DNA of 64,000 bases. Source: Flavobacteriaceae bacterium. GTDB taxonomy: Bacteria; Bacteroidota; Bacteroidia; Flavobacteriales; Flavobacteriaceae. Below the pieces are notes generated by a model. It did not search any database. It was not told the DNA's origin and saw only the letters and a list, made by a program, of their open reading frames with translations. The stretch covers positions 1-64,000 of the forward strand of contig JAURRA010000028.1 in NCBI GenBank assembly GCA_030835825.1, in the 5' to 3' direction. The stretch's first letter is position 1; every line of letters starts with the position of its first letter. The translations under genes were made by a program, and so were the position numbers. Below, piece after piece: positions 1,740-61,587 of the stretch.

Positions 1740-4538
1740 ATGAAATTTCAAAAGATTTTCCTTGTCCTTCTGGGATTTACCATCCAATTTGGATATTCTC
1801 AAACAGCCCCCCCAACCCTTGATATCCTTGACCAATCGTTGGTAAAAAATCTGAAATTTGACAATATAGGTCCAACTATTATGAGTGGACGTGTTACTGA
1901 TTTGGCTGTTAATCCAGAAATGACGTCTGAATTTTATGTGGCATATGCCTCAGGGGGTCTTTGGTATACGATTAACAATGGCGCCAGTTTCACCCCTATA
2001 TTGGATAACAGTCAAACCCAAAACGTTGGTGCTCTTGCTGTGCATTGGCCGACCAGAACAATATGGGTCGGAACAGGAGAAAATAATTCTTCTCGATCGT
2101 CTTATGCAGGAATAGGGATGTTGAAATCTACTGACAATGGAAAAACATGGGAACATATGGGACTGTCTGACAGTCATCATATCGGGAATATTCTCATCAA
2201 TCCTGATGATCCCAATGAGGTAGTTGTTGGGGTAGTAGGACATTTGTATTCTCCTAATGATGAACGGGGGGTTTTTAAAACAACTAATGGAGGTCAAGAT
2301 TGGAGCAAAACTCTTTTTGTCGATGATACTTCTGGCATTATTGAGATTCAACACGAACCAGGAAACTTTAATGTTCAATATGCGGCATCTTGGACAAAAG
2401 ACCGAAAAGCTTGGAACTTTTTAGGCAATGGTGAAAACTCCGCTATTTATAAAAGTACTGATGCAGGATCATCTTGGGCCAAAATCAGTACACCGAACAG
2501 TGGTTTTCCAACAGGAGAAGGGGTTGGTCGAATTGGTCTTGCCGTTTTCGATGCCAATACAGTTTATGCCGTGCACGATAGTCAGTTTTTGAGACCCGCC
2601 GCCGATGCCAATAGAGGCAAAGATGGGTTGTCAAAGGAGGATTTCAAAGCGATGAATAAGCAGCAATTCTTGGAGCTAGAGGATAATAAACTACAAAGTT
2701 TCCTCAAGTCCAACGGATTTCCGGAAAAATATAGCGCTAAAGCTGTCAAAGACATGGTCCGAGAAGGTAAGGCCAAACCAGTAGATTTAGCGAAATTTTT
2801 GGAAGATGCCAATGCCATGTTGTTCGATACACCTGTTGTTGGCGCTGAGGTTTTTGTGAGTCATGATGGTGGACAATCGTGGCGTAAAACTCATGAAGGT
2901 TACCTCGATGGGGTCTACAGTAGTTATGGCTACTACTTTGGTAAAATTCATGTTTCGCCTTCCGACAAAGACCATGTTTATATCTATGGTGTTCCAATCA
3001 TTAAATCAAAGGACGGGGGAGCAACTTTTTCTTCAATCGACTACGGCAATGTGCACAGTGACCACCACGCACTTTGGATTAATCCGAACAATCCGAATCA
3101 CCTGATCAACGGTAATGACGGCGGTGTCAATATATCTTACGATGATGGCGCGCATTGGATTAAGTGCAATTCTCCAGAGGTTGGTCAATTCTACGCGATT
3201 AATGTTGACGACGAAAAGCCTTATAATGTCTACGGTGGCTTGCAGGATAACGGTGTTTGGGTTGGTGCTAATAATGCTGACGAGGATGCGAGTTGGCATC
3301 AGAACGGTCAATATCCATGGAAATTTATCATGGGGGGAGATGGTATGCAAATACAAATCGACAACCGCAATGCTAAAGTTGTTTACACCGGGTATCAATT
3401 TGGAAATTACTATCGTTTGAATTTAGATACTCAAGAGTCGGTTTACATCCAGCCAAAGCATGAACTGGGTGACAACCCTTACCGCTTCAACTGGCAAACC
3501 CCCATTTTGTTGTCTTCTCACAATCAAGACATACTTTATTTCGGTACTAACAAACTATTGCGTTCGATGAACCAAGGTAAAGATTGGTCTGTTATCAGTC
3601 CCGACCTTACCACAGGAGGCAAAAAAGGCAATGTAGCTTATGGTACATTGACGACTATCAGCGAGTCACCATTCAAATTCGGTCAAATTGTAGTCGGCAG
3701 TGACGACGGCTATGTTCATCTGACCCAAGACGGTGGAGATAGTTGGACCAAGATATCAGATAGTTTTCCGAAGGACCTATGGGTGTCTCGAGTCGTGGCC
3801 TCGGCGCACGATCAAAATAGACTATACGTCACCTTGAATGGCTATAGATGGGATGATTTTAAAACCTATGTCTATCGCAGTAATGATTTGGGTGCTACTT
3901 GGACAGAAATTTCAGGAAATATACCAGCATCCCCTGTCAATGTTATTCTTGAGGATCCAGTCCGTGAGGATATGCTCTATGTTGGAACCGATTACGGGCT
4001 GTATGTCAGTCTTGATTCGGGTGCCTCATGGCATGCCTTGGCTGGTGGTATGCCCCACGTAGCGGTTCACGATTTGAAAATCCAAAGAACGGCTAATCAT
4101 CTATTAGTTGGGACACATGGTCGTAGTATTTATCGTGCAGAGATTGGCGTCTTACAGGGTTTGACTACTGAGGTGCTTAATCAAGAAACTCATGTATTTG
4201 TATTGGACAAGATGAAAAGATCACCTTATTGGGGAAGGCAGTGGAGCCAGTTTAGAGATGCCAATAGTCCTAAATTGACCATTCCATACTACACCAATGA
4301 AGATCGAACCATGCAGTTTTTAATTACAGATGAAACTGGTAATGAGGTGTTTAGCAGTCAGGTGTCTGCCGATAAAGGATTGAACACCCTTGATTACGAT
4401 ATGAGTTACTCAGAAAAAGCGCTCAAAAAGCTTAAGAAAAACGCACCCAAAGCAGGAGACAATGGCCGGGTGTATTTGGCTAAAGGTACTTACAATGTGA
4501 TGATTGGAAATGCGGGGAAAGAGCTTGTTATTGAGTAA
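1740..4538 (+). CDS. Secreted VPS10/sortilin-like beta-propeller protein with Asp-box repeats
   Basis: A 932-aa exported protein with an N-terminal signal peptide (about residues 1-20, ending GYSQ). It carries at least ten Asp-box (BNR) motifs of the form S-x-D-x-G-x-x-W, at roughly residues 130, 181, 239, 374, 422, 466, 607, 661, 713 and 757. This is the layout of the VPS10/sortilin-type or photosystem-stability-like propellers, often labelled glycosyl hydrolase in databases. Such propellers bind or process ligands outside the cytoplasm, but no catalytic residues can be assigned here. The last ~20 residues (KGTYNVMIGNAGKELVIE) resemble the final strands of a type A T9SS sorting domain but are too short to be sure. 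It sits alone between a 180-base intergenic region and the sdh promoter. Confidence 0.85.
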   Translation: MKFQKIFLVLLGFTIQFGYSQTAPPTLDILDQSLVKNLKFDNIGPTIMSGRVTDLAVNPEMTSEFYVAYASGGLWYTINNGASFTPILDNSQTQNVGALAVHWPTRTIWVGTGENNSSRSSYAGIGMLKSTDNGKTWEHMGLSDSHHIGNILINPDDPNEVVVGVVGHLYSPNDERGVFKTTNGGQDWSKTLFVDDTSGIIEIQHEPGNFNVQYAASWTKDRKAWNFLGNGENSAIYKSTDAGSSWAKISTPNSGFPTGEGVGRIGLAVFDANTVYAVHDSQFLRPAADANRGKDGLSKEDFKAMNKQQFLELEDNKLQSFLKSNGFPEKYSAKAVKDMVREGKAKPVDLAKFLEDANAMLFDTPVVGAEVFVSHDGGQSWRKTHEGYLDGVYSSYGYYFGKIHVSPSDKDHVYIYGVPIIKSKDGGATFSSIDYGNVHSDHHALWINPNNPNHLINGNDGGVNISYDDGAHWIKCNSPEVGQFYAINVDDEKPYNVYGGLQDNGVWVGANNADEDASWHQNGQYPWKFIMGGDGMQIQIDNRNAKVVYTGYQFGNYYRLNLDTQESVYIQPKHELGDNPYRFNWQTPILLSSHNQDILYFGTNKLLRSMNQGKDWSVISPDLTTGGKKGNVAYGTLTTISESPFKFGQIVVGSDDGYVHLTQDGGDSWTKISDSFPKDLWVSRVVASAHDQNRLYVTLNGYRWDDFKTYVYRSNDLGATWTEISGNIPASPVNVILEDPVREDMLYVGTDYGLYVSLDSGASWHALAGGMPHVAVHDLKIQRTANHLLVGTHGRSIYRAEIGVLQGLTTEVLNQETHVFVLDKMKRSPYWGRQWSQFRDANSPKLTIPYYTNEDRTMQFLITDETGNEVFSSQVSADKGLNTLDYDMSYSEKALKKLKKNAPKAGDNGRVYLAKGTYNVMIGNAGKELVIE

Positions 4539-4588
4539 AATTATATTTGATTTAAATTGCATTATTTGAGTTTTTTCTGTCACAGGAT

Positions 4589-4619
4589 TTGCTGTAGCGA
4601 TTGCTGTGGTGTACTTTTG
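4589..4619 (+). promoter_or_regulatory. Bacteroidota-type promoter of sdhCAB
   Basis: TTG at 4589-4591 is followed after 20 bases by TACTTTTG at 4612-4619. This matches the Bacteroidota primary sigma consensus TTG-(19-21)-TAnnTTTG. Transcription would start near 4625, about 18 bases before the SdhC start. It is the only good promoter seen ahead of the three genes, so they are probably one transcript. Confidence 0.7.
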
Positions 4620-4642
4620 TAATTCTAAATCCAAGACCACTT

Positions 4643-5320
4643 ATGGCTCAACTGTTTCAATCTTCAATAGGACGAAAAGTAGCAATGGCTCTTTCGGCCT
4701 TTTTCCTGATGGTTTTTTTGTTACAACATTTTGCTATCAATAGCTTGTCAGTCATTAATCCAGATGCTTTCAATGAGGTGTCTCATTTTATGGGTACCAA
4801 TCCTGTGGTACAATTTGCATTGCAACCTGTTCTGATTTTTGGTGTCCTTTTCCATTTTATGATGGGCTTTATTTTAGACTTTAAGAATCGCAAGGCCAAT
4901 GGAAAGAGCTATGTGAAGTATAATGGAGCTGCAAATGCTAAATGGGCCAGTCGCAATATGATCTTGAGCGGCTTAGTCATCTTAGGTTTTATGGCGCTCC
5001 ACTTTGTTGATTTTTGGTTTCCTGAAATGAACACCAAATTTATCCAAGGAGATTGGTCGGGAACTGCCGAAGGTGTGGAAGGATTGCGCTATTATGAGGA
5101 ACTTCGACATAAATTTGTTAACCCCTATCGCGTAGGAGCCTATGCTTTAGCTTTTGTATTTTTAGCTCTTCATTTGAATCATGGTTTCACCTCAGCTTTT
5201 CAATCCGTTGGTAGTACTTGGGGACGCAAAAAATTGCTTCAGACCATTGGACTGATTTACGCCTACGTTATTCCAGTAGGATTTATTGGCATCGCCCTGT
5301 TTCATCACCTTACCCACTAA
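4643..5320 (+). CDS. sdhC: Succinate dehydrogenase / fumarate reductase cytochrome b subunit
   Basis: A 225-aa membrane anchor carrying heme b and the quinone site of complex II, of the five-helix single-subunit type found in Bacteroidota. Hydrophobic segments lie near residues 13-33, 60-85, 105-125, 155-180 and 200-222. Candidate heme-ligand histidines sit within them: LLQHFAIN (His29), LFHFMMGF, MALHFVDF and LALHLNHGF. The start at 4643 gives the usual N-terminus MAQLFQSSIGRK; an upstream in-frame TTG at 4601 falls in or before the promoter and is rejected. sdhA follows 6 bases later and sdhB after it, forming the C-A-B order typical of the phylum. There is no sdhD, as expected. Confidence 0.95.
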   Translation: MAQLFQSSIGRKVAMALSAFFLMVFLLQHFAINSLSVINPDAFNEVSHFMGTNPVVQFALQPVLIFGVLFHFMMGFILDFKNRKANGKSYVKYNGAANAKWASRNMILSGLVILGFMALHFVDFWFPEMNTKFIQGDWSGTAEGVEGLRYYEELRHKFVNPYRVGAYALAFVFLALHLNHGFTSAFQSVGSTWGRKKLLQTIGLIYAYVIPVGFIGIALFHHLTH

Positions 5321-58469: not shown

Positions 58470-59774
58470 ATGGCTCGGAATTTAGTCGAAGAATTAAGGT
58501 GGCGTGGTTTGCTTCACGATATGACCCCAGGAACTGAAGAAAAACTTCAAAATGGAATGACTACAGCCTATATTGGCTTTGACCCTACGGCCGATGCCCT
58601 TCACGTGGGAAGTTTGGTTCCTGTGATGTTATTGGTCCATTTATTTCGATATGGTCATAAGCCAGTGGCCCTTTTAGGTGGTGCTACCGGTATGATTGGG
58701 GATCCGTCTGGAAAAAGTGACGAACGCAATTTACTCGATGAGGCTACCTTGCAGCGCAATGTGAATGGCATAAAATCTATTTTAGAAAAATATTTGGACT
58801 TCAAAAGCACCGCAGCCAATGCTCCTCTGCTAGTTAATAATTACGACTGGATGAAATCGTTCACCTTTATTGAGTTTGCAAGAGAAGTTGGAAAGCGCAT
58901 CACCGTTAATTATATGATGTCGAAAGATTCTGTAAAAAAACGACTTCAAGGTGATTCTGGGACGGGTATGTCATTTACAGAATTCACTTACCAGTTGATT
59001 CAAGGCTACGACTTTTACCATTTGCACAAGCATTATGGTTGTGAGCTGCAGATGGGTGGCAGTGACCAATGGGGCAATATTACTACGGGCATGGAACTGG
59101 TCCGACGAATGAATCCAGATCAAGACACTAGCGCTTTTGCCTTGACTTGCCCTTTAATCACCAAGTCGGATGGTTCTAAATTTGGCAAATCGGAGTCGGG
59201 AAATGTTTGGTTGACTCCAGAACGAACCTCAGTATTTAAATTTTACCAATTTTGGCTTAATGTGTCTGACGAGGATGCCGAGAAATATATTAAAATTTTC
59301 ACCTTTTTAGATAAATTGACCGTCGATCAACTCATCAGTGCACATCGAGAAGCACCCCATTTGAGGGGATTACAAAAACGTTTGGCTCAGGAAGTGACCA
59401 ATTTTGTCCACGGTGAGGATAGCGCCAGCCAAGCGGAACAAGCATCAGACATTCTCTTCAGTAAAAATTTTAAAACTGACATCCAAGGACTAGACGAATC
59501 TACATTTAACGAAGTGTTTGAGGGTGTGCCGATGGTTAATTTGCCGAAGTCAGAACTCACTAATGGTATGGATATGATTGGCGCCTTGTCTGCCAAAACG
59601 CAATTTCTTCCCTCTAACGGTGAAGCGCGACGTGCCTTACAAGAGCAATCTATTTCAGTCAACAAAGAAAAGGTTGGCCTCGATTATAAGCTCTCCTCTT
59701 CAGACTTAATACACAACGCTTACGTGGTGATCAATAAAGGCAAAAGGCAGACTTTCATTATTAAGTTTGAGTAA
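58470..59774 (+). CDS. tyrS: Tyrosine--tRNA ligase
   Basis: A 434-aa class I synthetase. The HIGH-type motif is in DPTADALHVGSLVPVML and the KMSKS motif is KFGKSESGN. The tyrosine-binding region FTYQLIQGYDFYHL and GGSDQWGNITTGMEL are intact. The C-terminal ~90 residues form an S4 RNA-binding domain. Start ATG 58470 is preferred over GTG 58452, which is part of the -7 element TATCTTTG (58445-58452). Confidence 0.97.
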   Translation: MARNLVEELRWRGLLHDMTPGTEEKLQNGMTTAYIGFDPTADALHVGSLVPVMLLVHLFRYGHKPVALLGGATGMIGDPSGKSDERNLLDEATLQRNVNGIKSILEKYLDFKSTAANAPLLVNNYDWMKSFTFIEFAREVGKRITVNYMMSKDSVKKRLQGDSGTGMSFTEFTYQLIQGYDFYHLHKHYGCELQMGGSDQWGNITTGMELVRRMNPDQDTSAFALTCPLITKSDGSKFGKSESGNVWLTPERTSVFKFYQFWLNVSDEDAEKYIKIFTFLDKLTVDQLISAHREAPHLRGLQKRLAQEVTNFVHGEDSASQAEQASDILFSKNFKTDIQGLDESTFNEVFEGVPMVNLPKSELTNGMDMIGALSAKTQFLPSNGEARRALQEQSISVNKEKVGLDYKLSSSDLIHNAYVVINKGKRQTFIIKFE

Positions 59775-59797
59775 TTTAAAGTTCGCATCAATCTGTG

Positions 59798-60052
59798 CTA
59801 TTTTCTGAACAATTTGCCTTGTAAAAATCTTCTTTTGAAATAAAGCAACAGAACAAAACTCCCTATTGAATTGATTGACGTTATAACGAGGCTCATTTTG
59901 AGATGTTCGTTCAACGTCAATTGGTTATATGCTTGATAATGATTGAAGTGATCAATTACAAAAAAGGAAAAGGCTAATGAGAAGGTCAATAGCACAATGA
60001 CGATCATTATAATTAGTATTAAACCATTGATTGAGGAATTTGAAATATTCAT
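59798..60052 (-). CDS. Small two-helix membrane protein of unknown function
   Basis: An 84-aa protein with two hydrophobic helices (about residues 9-33 and 53-70). The segment between them is polar and charged (NHYQAYNQLTLNEHLKMS), and the tail is strongly basic, FKRRFLQGKLFRK. No family is recognised. Its start codon overlaps the stop of the upstream lipoprotein gene by 4 bases (ATGA), so the two are probably translated together. The size and topology would suit an immunity or accessory protein, but that is speculation. Confidence 0.6.
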   Translation of the reverse strand: MNISNSSINGLILIIMIVIVLLTFSLAFSFFVIDHFNHYQAYNQLTLNEHLKMSLVITSINSIGSFVLLLYFKRRFLQGKLFRK

Positions 60053-60585
60053 GGATGCGTCATTATATAAATTACAAGACTGTTGAGCGCCGATTCAAAT
60101 CCAATACCTAATAGACTTGCGATGATTTCCGTTGTGGCTACAATTCCTGCTCCTCCTGTTGCAGCCCCAATTAAAGCAACCGCTGAAGCTACTAATGCCA
60201 ATGTCACAAAACTAATACCAGCAGAAATTCCATCCGCAGTTACCCAAGCTGGTCTAGGACGTGGTTTTTCAGGCTGGTCATTTCCAGTTTCTATGTAATA
60301 CCTTTCCAGTTTCAAAGAATTTTGTGTGAGACCCTTTGTTGAATAAAGCTGAAGTGCTCTTGCGCGAACATCATCAAGACTAGCTGGTTGATTAGAAAAT
60401 AATAAAGTTAAATTATCGTTGTGTTCAGAGGCAATGCGTATGATTTCGGGGTCACTTAGAATCCTAGTATATTTACTGAAAGTAGGGGCCTCTTCAATCT
60501 TGTATTTGCTGCACGAAACAAAAAGTACAACAACCGAGACAAGAATTGAAAAATTGCTTTTGCGAAAATGTTTTAAAATTGTCAC
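60049..60585 (-). CDS. Unrecognised lipoprotein with a Gly/Ala-rich hydrophobic C-terminal module
   Basis: A 178-aa protein starting at GTG 60585. The lipoprotein signal ends LFVSC (Cys 25). Residues ~30-100 are soluble, charged and helix-prone. A Pro-rich hinge (PEKPRPRPAW, about 105-114) precedes a ~60-residue hydrophobic region with glycine repeats, GISAGISFVTLALVASAVAL then AATGGAGIVA, ending ALNSLVIYIMTHP. This order resembles membrane-active peptides fused to a carrier part, but no family is recognised. It overlaps the small membrane protein gene by 4 bases. It is flanked upstream by 345 bases of AT-rich non-coding DNA. Confidence 0.65.
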   Translation of the reverse strand: MTILKHFRKSNFSILVSVVVLFVSCSKYKIEEAPTFSKYTRILSDPEIIRIASEHNDNLTLLFSNQPASLDDVRARALQLYSTKGLTQNSLKLERYYIETGNDQPEKPRPRPAWVTADGISAGISFVTLALVASAVALIGAATGGAGIVATTEIIASLLGIGFESALNSLVIYIMTHP

Positions 60586-60930
60586 AGTATTATGGGGTCT
60601 AATAGTAATTCTACTTTATGGAAATTACTTTTATTTAGTTAAAAATAAATAAAAAATAGAAAAAATAATTAATATATGTTTTCACCTAAAGTTTTGACTT
60701 AATGATATCTACATACAGTTTGAATATTGTCTTGATTAATTTAGATTTATTCATTTAATTGGCCACAAAATAAATAGAAAAGCGATTTTCGTTGGATATT
60801 ATTAAAATCTCATCAATTCTCTATTTTGTCCCTATTGGAATTCTAAATAAATATGCAGACTATTGCTAAAAATAAATTTGAATTAATTATTCTTTAGAAT
60901 TTAAAAAGTACCCAAAAAGTAAATTTAAGG
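60586..60930. other. AT-rich intergenic region
   Basis: 345 bases of very AT-rich DNA without a credible gene on either strand. It contains short A/T runs and direct ATAAAT-like words, but no clear promoter with both elements, no hairpin terminator and no duplicated ends that would mark a mobile element. Confidence 0.6.
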
Positions 60931-61587
60931 TTAAGTCAACAGTACAGCAAAAGTTCCAAAAAACAAGACGTGCAGTAGCAACAGATTGTTAGCAAAGGCC
61001 TGCGGTCGGTCGGCAACCAAATTGTGATATAAAAATTGTAAAGGCAATGCTGCAATAAACCAACCGAGATAGTTGGAGAAAGGAGCTGTCCCTGATTCAA
61101 AAGTCCAATAGTCGAACAAGGGAGCTACTGGCTCTATACAGAGGTCAATCAACACCATTAAAACACTGCCTAAAAGTGCGGCTAGTATCATGCGCTTTGG
61201 GAAAATTAGGGCAGACACTGCACCAGTCATAAAGGTTAAACTGACCCAATTGGCGCCAATCAATATTGGAACTCCCACAAATTTCGACCCCAGATTGTCG
61301 CCATATTCATAAGATCCAAATATCAATCCTGTTTGAACGCCCACTATTTCTACGATCAAACCAAACACATAAACTAAGACAACTGTGGTGATGACTCTTT
61401 TGTTAAAATCGTTAAGATTGATCAAAAGCAAAACAAAACACAACAGCAAGTTGAGAGGTGTGAGTTGCAAAAACAAATCGCGATTACCAAATAGGATACC
61501 CAAAATACCAGAACAGAAAACCAGCCAAATAACCCCAGTCGAAATCCACATGACCCTGTTAGCAGGAAGAAAGAGTTTTTTAATCAT
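60931..61587 (-). CDS. cruF: Carotenoid hydratase of the CruF family
   Basis: A 218-aa membrane protein with about seven hydrophobic helices. The segment VGVQTGLIFGSYEYGDNLG, followed by GVPILIGANWVSLTF, is characteristic of the CruF/DUF422 carotenoid biosynthesis family, which adds water to the psi-end of a carotene (1',2'-hydratase). Its start overlaps the end of crtD by 8 bases, so the two are likely coupled. The pair fits a pathway to myxol, saproxanthin or related monocyclic carotenoids; the exact product cannot be told from this window. Confidence 0.85.
   Translation of the reverse strand: MIKKLFLPANRVMWISTGVIWLVFCSGILGILFGNRDLFLQLTPLNLLLCFVLLLINLNDFNKRVITTVVLVYVFGLIVEIVGVQTGLIFGSYEYGDNLGSKFVGVPILIGANWVSLTFMTGAVSALIFPKRMILAALLGSVLMVLIDLCIEPVAPLFDYWTFESGTAPFSNYLGWFIAALPLQFLYHNLVADRPQAFANNLLLLHVLFFGTFAVLLT

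Follow-up and report, generated by a model that had tools for sequence, protein, structure and literature searches.

A candidate toxin–immunity gene pair inserted between tyrS and cruF, and a leader-defined lipoprotein family of Flavobacteriales to which it belongs

The gene pair and its insertion site

The window (the whole 64,000-nucleotide stretch of DNA analysed, from a 1.62 Mb Flavobacteriaceae genome, G000) carries two overlapping genes on the minus strand, encoding a lipoprotein and a small membrane protein. The features of the locus are as follows:

59769..60930, no strand: inserted block of ~1,162 bp, 32% GC, flush between the tyrS and cruF stop codons (blastn and tblastn against congeners G003 and G002)
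59798..60052, minus strand: 84-aa two-helix basic membrane protein, proposed cognate immunity protein (open reading frame list; partner adjacency in the family)
60049..60585, minus strand: gene of the 178-aa lipoprotein, starting at GTG, putative lipid-anchored polymorphic toxin (open reading frame list, held-out leader profile, 400-genome search, GC3)
60052..60243, minus strand: Gly/Ala-rich hydrophobic module (residues ~115-178), predicted helical hairpin and proposed pore-forming part (composition; low-confidence model)
60247..60510, minus strand: soluble helical middle (residues 26-103) and Pro-rich hinge QPEKPRPRP (residues ~104-113) (sequence; low-confidence model)
60511..60585, minus strand: conserved leader with signal peptidase II signal MTILKHFRKSNFSILVSVVVLFVSC, lipobox LFVSC and acylated Cys25 (alignments; leader matches)
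60586..60930, minus strand: AT-rich non-coding upstream region, 345 bp, 21% GC, presumably holding the promoter (base composition)

The first-pass annotation had described a two-gene membrane cassette, and both open reading frames are confirmed on the minus strand. The genes overlap by ATGA (60049-60052), with the start of the 84-aa gene inside the overlap. The GTG start of the lipoprotein is backed by alignment, MTILKHFRKS in the window corresponding to MTILKRIRKP or MNILKxxRKP in relatives. The hydrophobic module has a mean hydropathy of 1.69, a Gly+Ala content of 32% and four matches of the G/A-x3-G/A type, and the 84-aa protein has a pair of hydrophobic helices and ends in a basic tail (YFKRRFLQGKLFRK). 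The Pro-rich hinge is confined to the window copy among the family members described below. GC3 of the lipoprotein gene is 0.26, compared with 0.42 in the flanking tyrS, cruF and crtI. The cassette had also been placed in AT-rich DNA, a description that applies chiefly to the upstream region. A promoter scan of this upstream region gave no signal above shuffled sequences. The pair is real, and it is not a housekeeping one.

A single-sequence model of the window lipoprotein (pLDDT 46) places module helices at residues 117-142 and 146-176 and, at low confidence, helices of the middle at 46-54 and 70-83. In the better model, that of the relative L142 (pLDDT 58), the middle is helical, at a local confidence of 70-86, and the module consists of two low-confidence helices. 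Both models are too weak to establish a fold, and no match came from Foldseek.

The flanking genes tyrS and cruF are convergent, and only ~10 bp separate them in congeners G003 and G002 (blastn, tblastn). The junction in a third congener, G001, holds ~150 bp of unrelated sequence, and the block at 59769-60930 is missing from all three. The insert contains the cassette alone, with tyrS on one side and cruF/crtI on the other. Judged from these alignments, the cassette is evidently a recent insertion, and horizontal acquisition would explain it best. A possible target duplication, AATTTAA at both edges of the insert, is not significant because the DNA is so AT-rich.

The same junction in G001 includes a 37-aa open frame (L034:1347-1460) that could be the remnant of a small membrane gene. 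It was considered as a relative of the window partner on account of its resemblance to a small transmembrane (TM) remnant, and no tie was established; the frame suggests a recurrent insertion site. The gene adjoining the insert in the window (60931-61587) matches Caroten_synth (PF04240) and is near CruF-type hydratases, below the NCBIfam equivalog cut-offs.

Searches against known families

Both products stay below the cut-offs of Pfam, NCBIfam, PHROGs and PADLOC, and neither has a meaningful PDB match. The 178-aa lipoprotein has no nuclease match above cut-off in Pfam or NCBIfam and no MACPF/CDC domain match in Pfam. Direct searches with it found no homologue in viral contigs, phages, plasmids or 100 relatives; neither exact protein occurs in any of these collections or was found by a scan of genome contigs seeded with exact 8-residue patterns, and a small-protein search returned background only. 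The modules of the wider family likewise gave nothing significant in PDB profile searches and Foldseek, and no known toxin fold was matched. In the open-licence literature we found no described lipoprotein bacteriocin with an immunity protein from Flavobacteriaceae or Bacteroidota. The first-pass statement that neither gene has a known family thus holds against Pfam, NCBIfam, PHROGs, PADLOC, the PDB and that literature.

Several sub-threshold matches were rejected. The 84-aa partner scored 18.2 bits against DUF2569 (PF10754; cut-off 26.5), a likeness that is probably mere hydrophobic similarity. Two relatives matched BSAP5b (NCBIfam) at ~15 bits or less, compared with a cut-off of 380. Matches to an M30 peptidase and to cation-efflux proteins were below cut-off, and those to the calcium uniporter and other PDB entries were attributed to chance.

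A lipoprotein family defined by its leader

A permissive search of 300 genomes returned two matches (loci L002 and L003, E ~4e-4), both limited to the first 42 residues; most of the other weak matches were unrelated lipoprotein signal peptides. L002 and L003 share the leader with the window lipoprotein, differ from it in the helical middle and have at the C-terminus a hydrophobic stretch rich in Gly and Ala, and a gene for a small multi-helix membrane protein lies directly 3' of each. A leader profile, built first from three sequences (the window, L002 and L003) and then from 14, gave 14 matches in 10 of 400 genomes of the taxonomic family at E<=7e-13, the next best match being at 1e-5. The consensus M(N/T)(I/V)LKxxRKPYxSIFLxSLxLFVSC, to which the window lipoprotein conforms, was found at 8 loci in named genomes.

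Scanning such genomes with the leader extended the family to Polaribacter sp. IC073, where the reading frame is truncated, and to Aquimarina sp. Aq78, a Bacteroidia MAG and Flavobacteriales bacterium 33_180_T64. G458, from another family of the same order, was found afterwards by the leader alone (E=4e-15), and it encodes a Gly-rich module and, downstream, a 58-aa two-TM open reading frame. Members or remnants are present in Ichthyenterobacterium magnum (DSM 26283) and in Polaribacter and Aquimarina strains. With L146 excluded (weak leader, no clear module), the family as known here comprises ~20 loci in 16 genomes, and it is apparently previously unlisted. Its presence is patchy: five genomes (G348, G326, G368, G391 and G667) have no match though sister species are positive, the family is missing from ~97% of the family-level genomes sampled, and 148 genomes sampled across the phylum held no member besides the window and G217.

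One further locus, L005 (1069-1725, genome G224), encodes a 218-aa lipoprotein that has no hydrophobic module; an 83-aa two-TM protein, laid out like the window partner, is encoded ~210 nt further on. The L005 lipoprotein is possibly a family relative with other cargo.

Controls separate the family from ordinary lipoproteins. In a jackknife, the held-out window sequence scored 43.7 bits. The highest score among 42 control lipoproteins, drawn from the loci that were the hardest leader look-alikes, was 28.4; only G236, which had been found via its module, scores under the controls. After the leader, a 50-aa stretch of mean hydropathy >=0.8 occurs in 15 of 16 members and in none of 43 control lipoproteins, and Gly+Ala makes up 30% of the modules as against 7% of the middles and partners. 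Membership of the window lipoprotein in the leader family is near certain from these comparisons.

For the second gene, we scored as a partner any 45-150-aa open reading frame that encodes two or more hydrophobic helices and follows the lipoprotein gene at a distance of -60 to +150 nt. This rule is satisfied by 16 of 18 members and by none of 35 control lipoproteins (Fisher p=1e-11). Of the two failures, G238 does have a 50-aa two-helix partner, obvious on inspection, and the copy in Aquimarina (L141) is truly without an adjacent one. At the latter locus (L141:4001-5721, Aquimarina sp. Aq78), a gene pair resembling ParD/ParE by eye lies ~460 bp downstream. On the question, raised in the first-pass annotation, of whether the two genes are conserved together, the exact pair is not, since no other genome searched has either sequence, and the architecture is, since so many relatives have an adjacent small multi-TM gene.

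These results bear on whether the two frames could be functionless, being either open by chance in inserted AT-rich DNA or the remains of decayed genes. Both exact sequences are orphans and the insert is AT-rich, as such an origin would predict. However, the held-out leader is homologous to genes in other genera, and the order of signal, middle, module and small TM open reading frame recurs in those 16 of 18 members and in none of the 35 controls. We regard this reading as largely refuted by the comparisons, and as very improbable.

The pair could also belong to a phage-related or self-acting system, with the lipoprotein serving in superinfection exclusion, or as a membrane-damaging abortive-infection effector accompanied by a regulator. 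Exclusion lipoproteins are known from phages, and systems of this kind typically involve accessory, inserted proteins that act on membranes. Against this, a search of IMG/VR viral contigs with the leader consensus found nothing, annotated phages and plasmids, PHROGs and PADLOC gave no match either, and no phage or defence genes were seen next to the cassette or around the family members whose neighbourhoods were listed. We consider such a role improbable.

Module types and their partners

The commonest module type has the form C-x10-C-(Gly-zipper helices)-C-x10-C and is found in G138, G238, G405, G180, G236 and three loci of G184. All eight of these Cys4-Gly-zipper modules are followed by a 49-57-aa two-TM partner, and most of the partners share the core IPLxLILLIQIFDKxxDY, that of G405 being more divergent. 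A second type, W/KCA..., occurs at three loci of G125 and in L142 and L143, and has other partners. The window copy falls with G149 and G217 in a third, loose group, its module showing weak similarity to theirs (z 4.0 and 3.5). Compared with the other types, the window copy scores z<=4.0 for the module and z<=2.9 for the partner, which is without a clear relative.

Across 17 loci, similarity between modules correlates with similarity between partners (Mantel r=0.73, permutation p=1e-4; host kinship was not modelled), a correlation driven mainly by the Cys4 type. As an exception, G125a and G125c have similar modules and dissimilar partners. The covariation of module and small protein raised in the first-pass annotation is seen in the family. 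Because the module and partner of the window copy are only weakly related to the others, this copy takes its place in the pattern by position, not by similarity.

The sequences also indicate how cargo may change. Tandem copies in G125 are identical over 72 of 72 nt to just past the acylated Cys, and identity then drops at once to ~40% or less. This is the picture expected if recombination keeps the leader while the cargo is exchanged or diverges fast. The tandem locus (L094:1282-3683) contains two members, each with its own membrane partner, and the third G125 member, elsewhere in the genome, is L002. At three loci the lipoprotein gene is broken (a stop in the leader in L096, a split or frameshift in L097, an in-frame stop in L143) and the partner is intact, as expected when antidotes outlive toxins.

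The G149 cassette lies in a 4.2-kb insert missing from its congener G348. Within the insert, the cassette is flanked by 288-bp direct repeats that are 96.5% identical (L153:2778-3065 and 4485-4772), and the repeats include the start of an endonuclease/exonuclease/phosphatase-like gene. They hint at how such cassettes integrate.

Part of this evidence would suit a non-toxic envelope pair, in which the hydrophobic hairpin anchors in or spans the membrane and the small protein acts as a chaperone for the lipoprotein, retains it or takes part in its assembly, perhaps in a stress response or a variable role at the surface. An obligate complex would likewise account for the overlap and adjacency of the genes, any co-evolving complex would account for the covariation, and single-copy accessory genes are common. 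However, rapid cargo change behind a constant leader, including the sharp 72-nt boundary, fits a toxin–immunity system better, as does patchy presence within genera. The broken lipoproteins beside intact partners point the same way, because in a structural complex both genes should decay together. We therefore think an envelope pair unlikely.

Comparison with described systems

The closest analogies are with SitA/SitI of Myxococcus and Cdz of Caulobacter. SitA has an escort domain of ~375 aa and C-terminal nucleases that act in the cytoplasm, and it needs TraAB outer membrane exchange (PMC5562445, PMC8546572). Like SitA/SitI, the present family combines a constant lipoprotein N-terminus, a polymorphic C-terminal part (toxic in SitA) and a downstream partner gene (the cognate immunity gene in SitA/SitI), and it shares the occurrence of several alleles per genome and frequent mobility. 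In the window pair, the lipobox and downstream partner gene follow this layout, the immunity role being putative. Unlike SitA, the family has only ~60-150 residues between the Cys and the module, with no escort or nuclease domain; the module is a hydrophobic Gly/Ala hairpin, and the partner is a membrane protein. No sequence similarity to SitA/SitI was found.

CdzC and CdzD are 84-86-aa glycine-zipper two-peptide bacteriocins that are type I-secreted and have no lipid anchor, and CdzI is a small TM immunity protein (PMC5380434). On the proposed reading, the cassette would resemble the Cdz system in pairing a Gly-rich membrane-active toxin on the cell surface with a small inner-membrane immunity protein. 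The window module has G/A-x3-G/A motifs and its partner is a two-TM protein, a layout that may be comparable; no sequence similarity was shown. The cassette differs in having one lipoprotein and no linked transporter, with no cdzAB-type genes in the insert. We read the resemblance to both systems as one of way of working without homology; the cassette is a member of neither.

Among Bacteroidota, the described pore-forming weapons include the BSAP/MACPF proteins, of which the BSAPs carry a lipid anchor, and the CDCLs, one pair of which comes with an immunity gene, BcdI (PMC12853789, PMC11169675). They share the phylum and a pore-forming action with what is proposed here, but have large beta-pore MACPF/CDC folds, and BcdI is a surface lipoprotein, whereas members of the present family gave no MACPF match, are predicted to be helical and have a TM protein as partner. 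In Phocaeicola, BcpT is a 499-aa proteolytically activated toxin and BcpI a 57-aa lipoprotein (PMC9308784). This pair is similar in that the toxin is a signal-peptidase-II substrate with a very small immunity gene directly downstream; however, BcpT is not described as a hydrophobic hairpin, and BcpI is not a two-TM protein.

Proposed function

The best-supported reading is a toxin–immunity pair, because, across the family, the leader stays constant, the hydrophobic modules vary and the small membrane partners covary with them. On this sequence evidence, we think that the cassette probably encodes a polymorphic lipid-anchored antibacterial lipoprotein, likely pore-forming, and its cognate inner-membrane immunity protein. 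Of the two roles offered in the first-pass annotation, toxin–immunity has thus gained support; envelope stress gains nothing, because the cassette is missing from the three congeners searched and the family from nearly all family-level genomes sampled.

Three features of the sequences underlie the proposed mechanism: in the lipoprotein, the signal-peptidase-II leader is conserved, and both the helical stretch behind it and the Gly/Ala-rich hydrophobic module vary; the next gene encodes a small multi-helix membrane protein whose type tracks the module type; and the loci are patchy insertions between housekeeping genes, differing between congeners. Toxicity and delivery we infer. The lipoprotein would travel to the outer membrane and be displayed, shed in vesicles or passed by contact to neighbouring relatives. 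Its hydrophobic module, the predicted helical hairpin, would insert in the inner membrane of the target and permeabilise it. The small partner, in the inner membrane of the producer, would block its own module only, as CdzI does for CdzC/D and SitI for SitA.

Surface display is uncertain for the window copy. In this phylum, surface export is signalled (LES) by acidic residues at positions +2 to +6 relative to the Cys (PMC5080379). In most relatives, SQYDxD-like residues follow the Cys, in contrast to SKYKIEE in the window copy, where acidic residues occur at +7/+8 only, a poor export signal. No secretion or exchange system is linked to the cassette.

More tentatively, and as a possibility that we would not yet favour, the family may represent a new contact- or vesicle-borne weapon of marine Flavobacteriales, in which a lipid-anchored carrier with a fixed leader bears interchangeable bacteriocin-like helical hairpins, matched by two- to four-helix inner-membrane antidotes and diversified by recombination at the leader boundary. 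The protein weapons described in Bacteroidota come mostly from gut Bacteroidales. One recognisable leader offers a handle for finding many loci, including cargo types that no profile would detect. It also makes two questions testable: how a lipoprotein brings a hydrophobic pore-like module across the envelope of its producer without damaging it, and whether delivery takes place by lipoprotein export or in vesicles.
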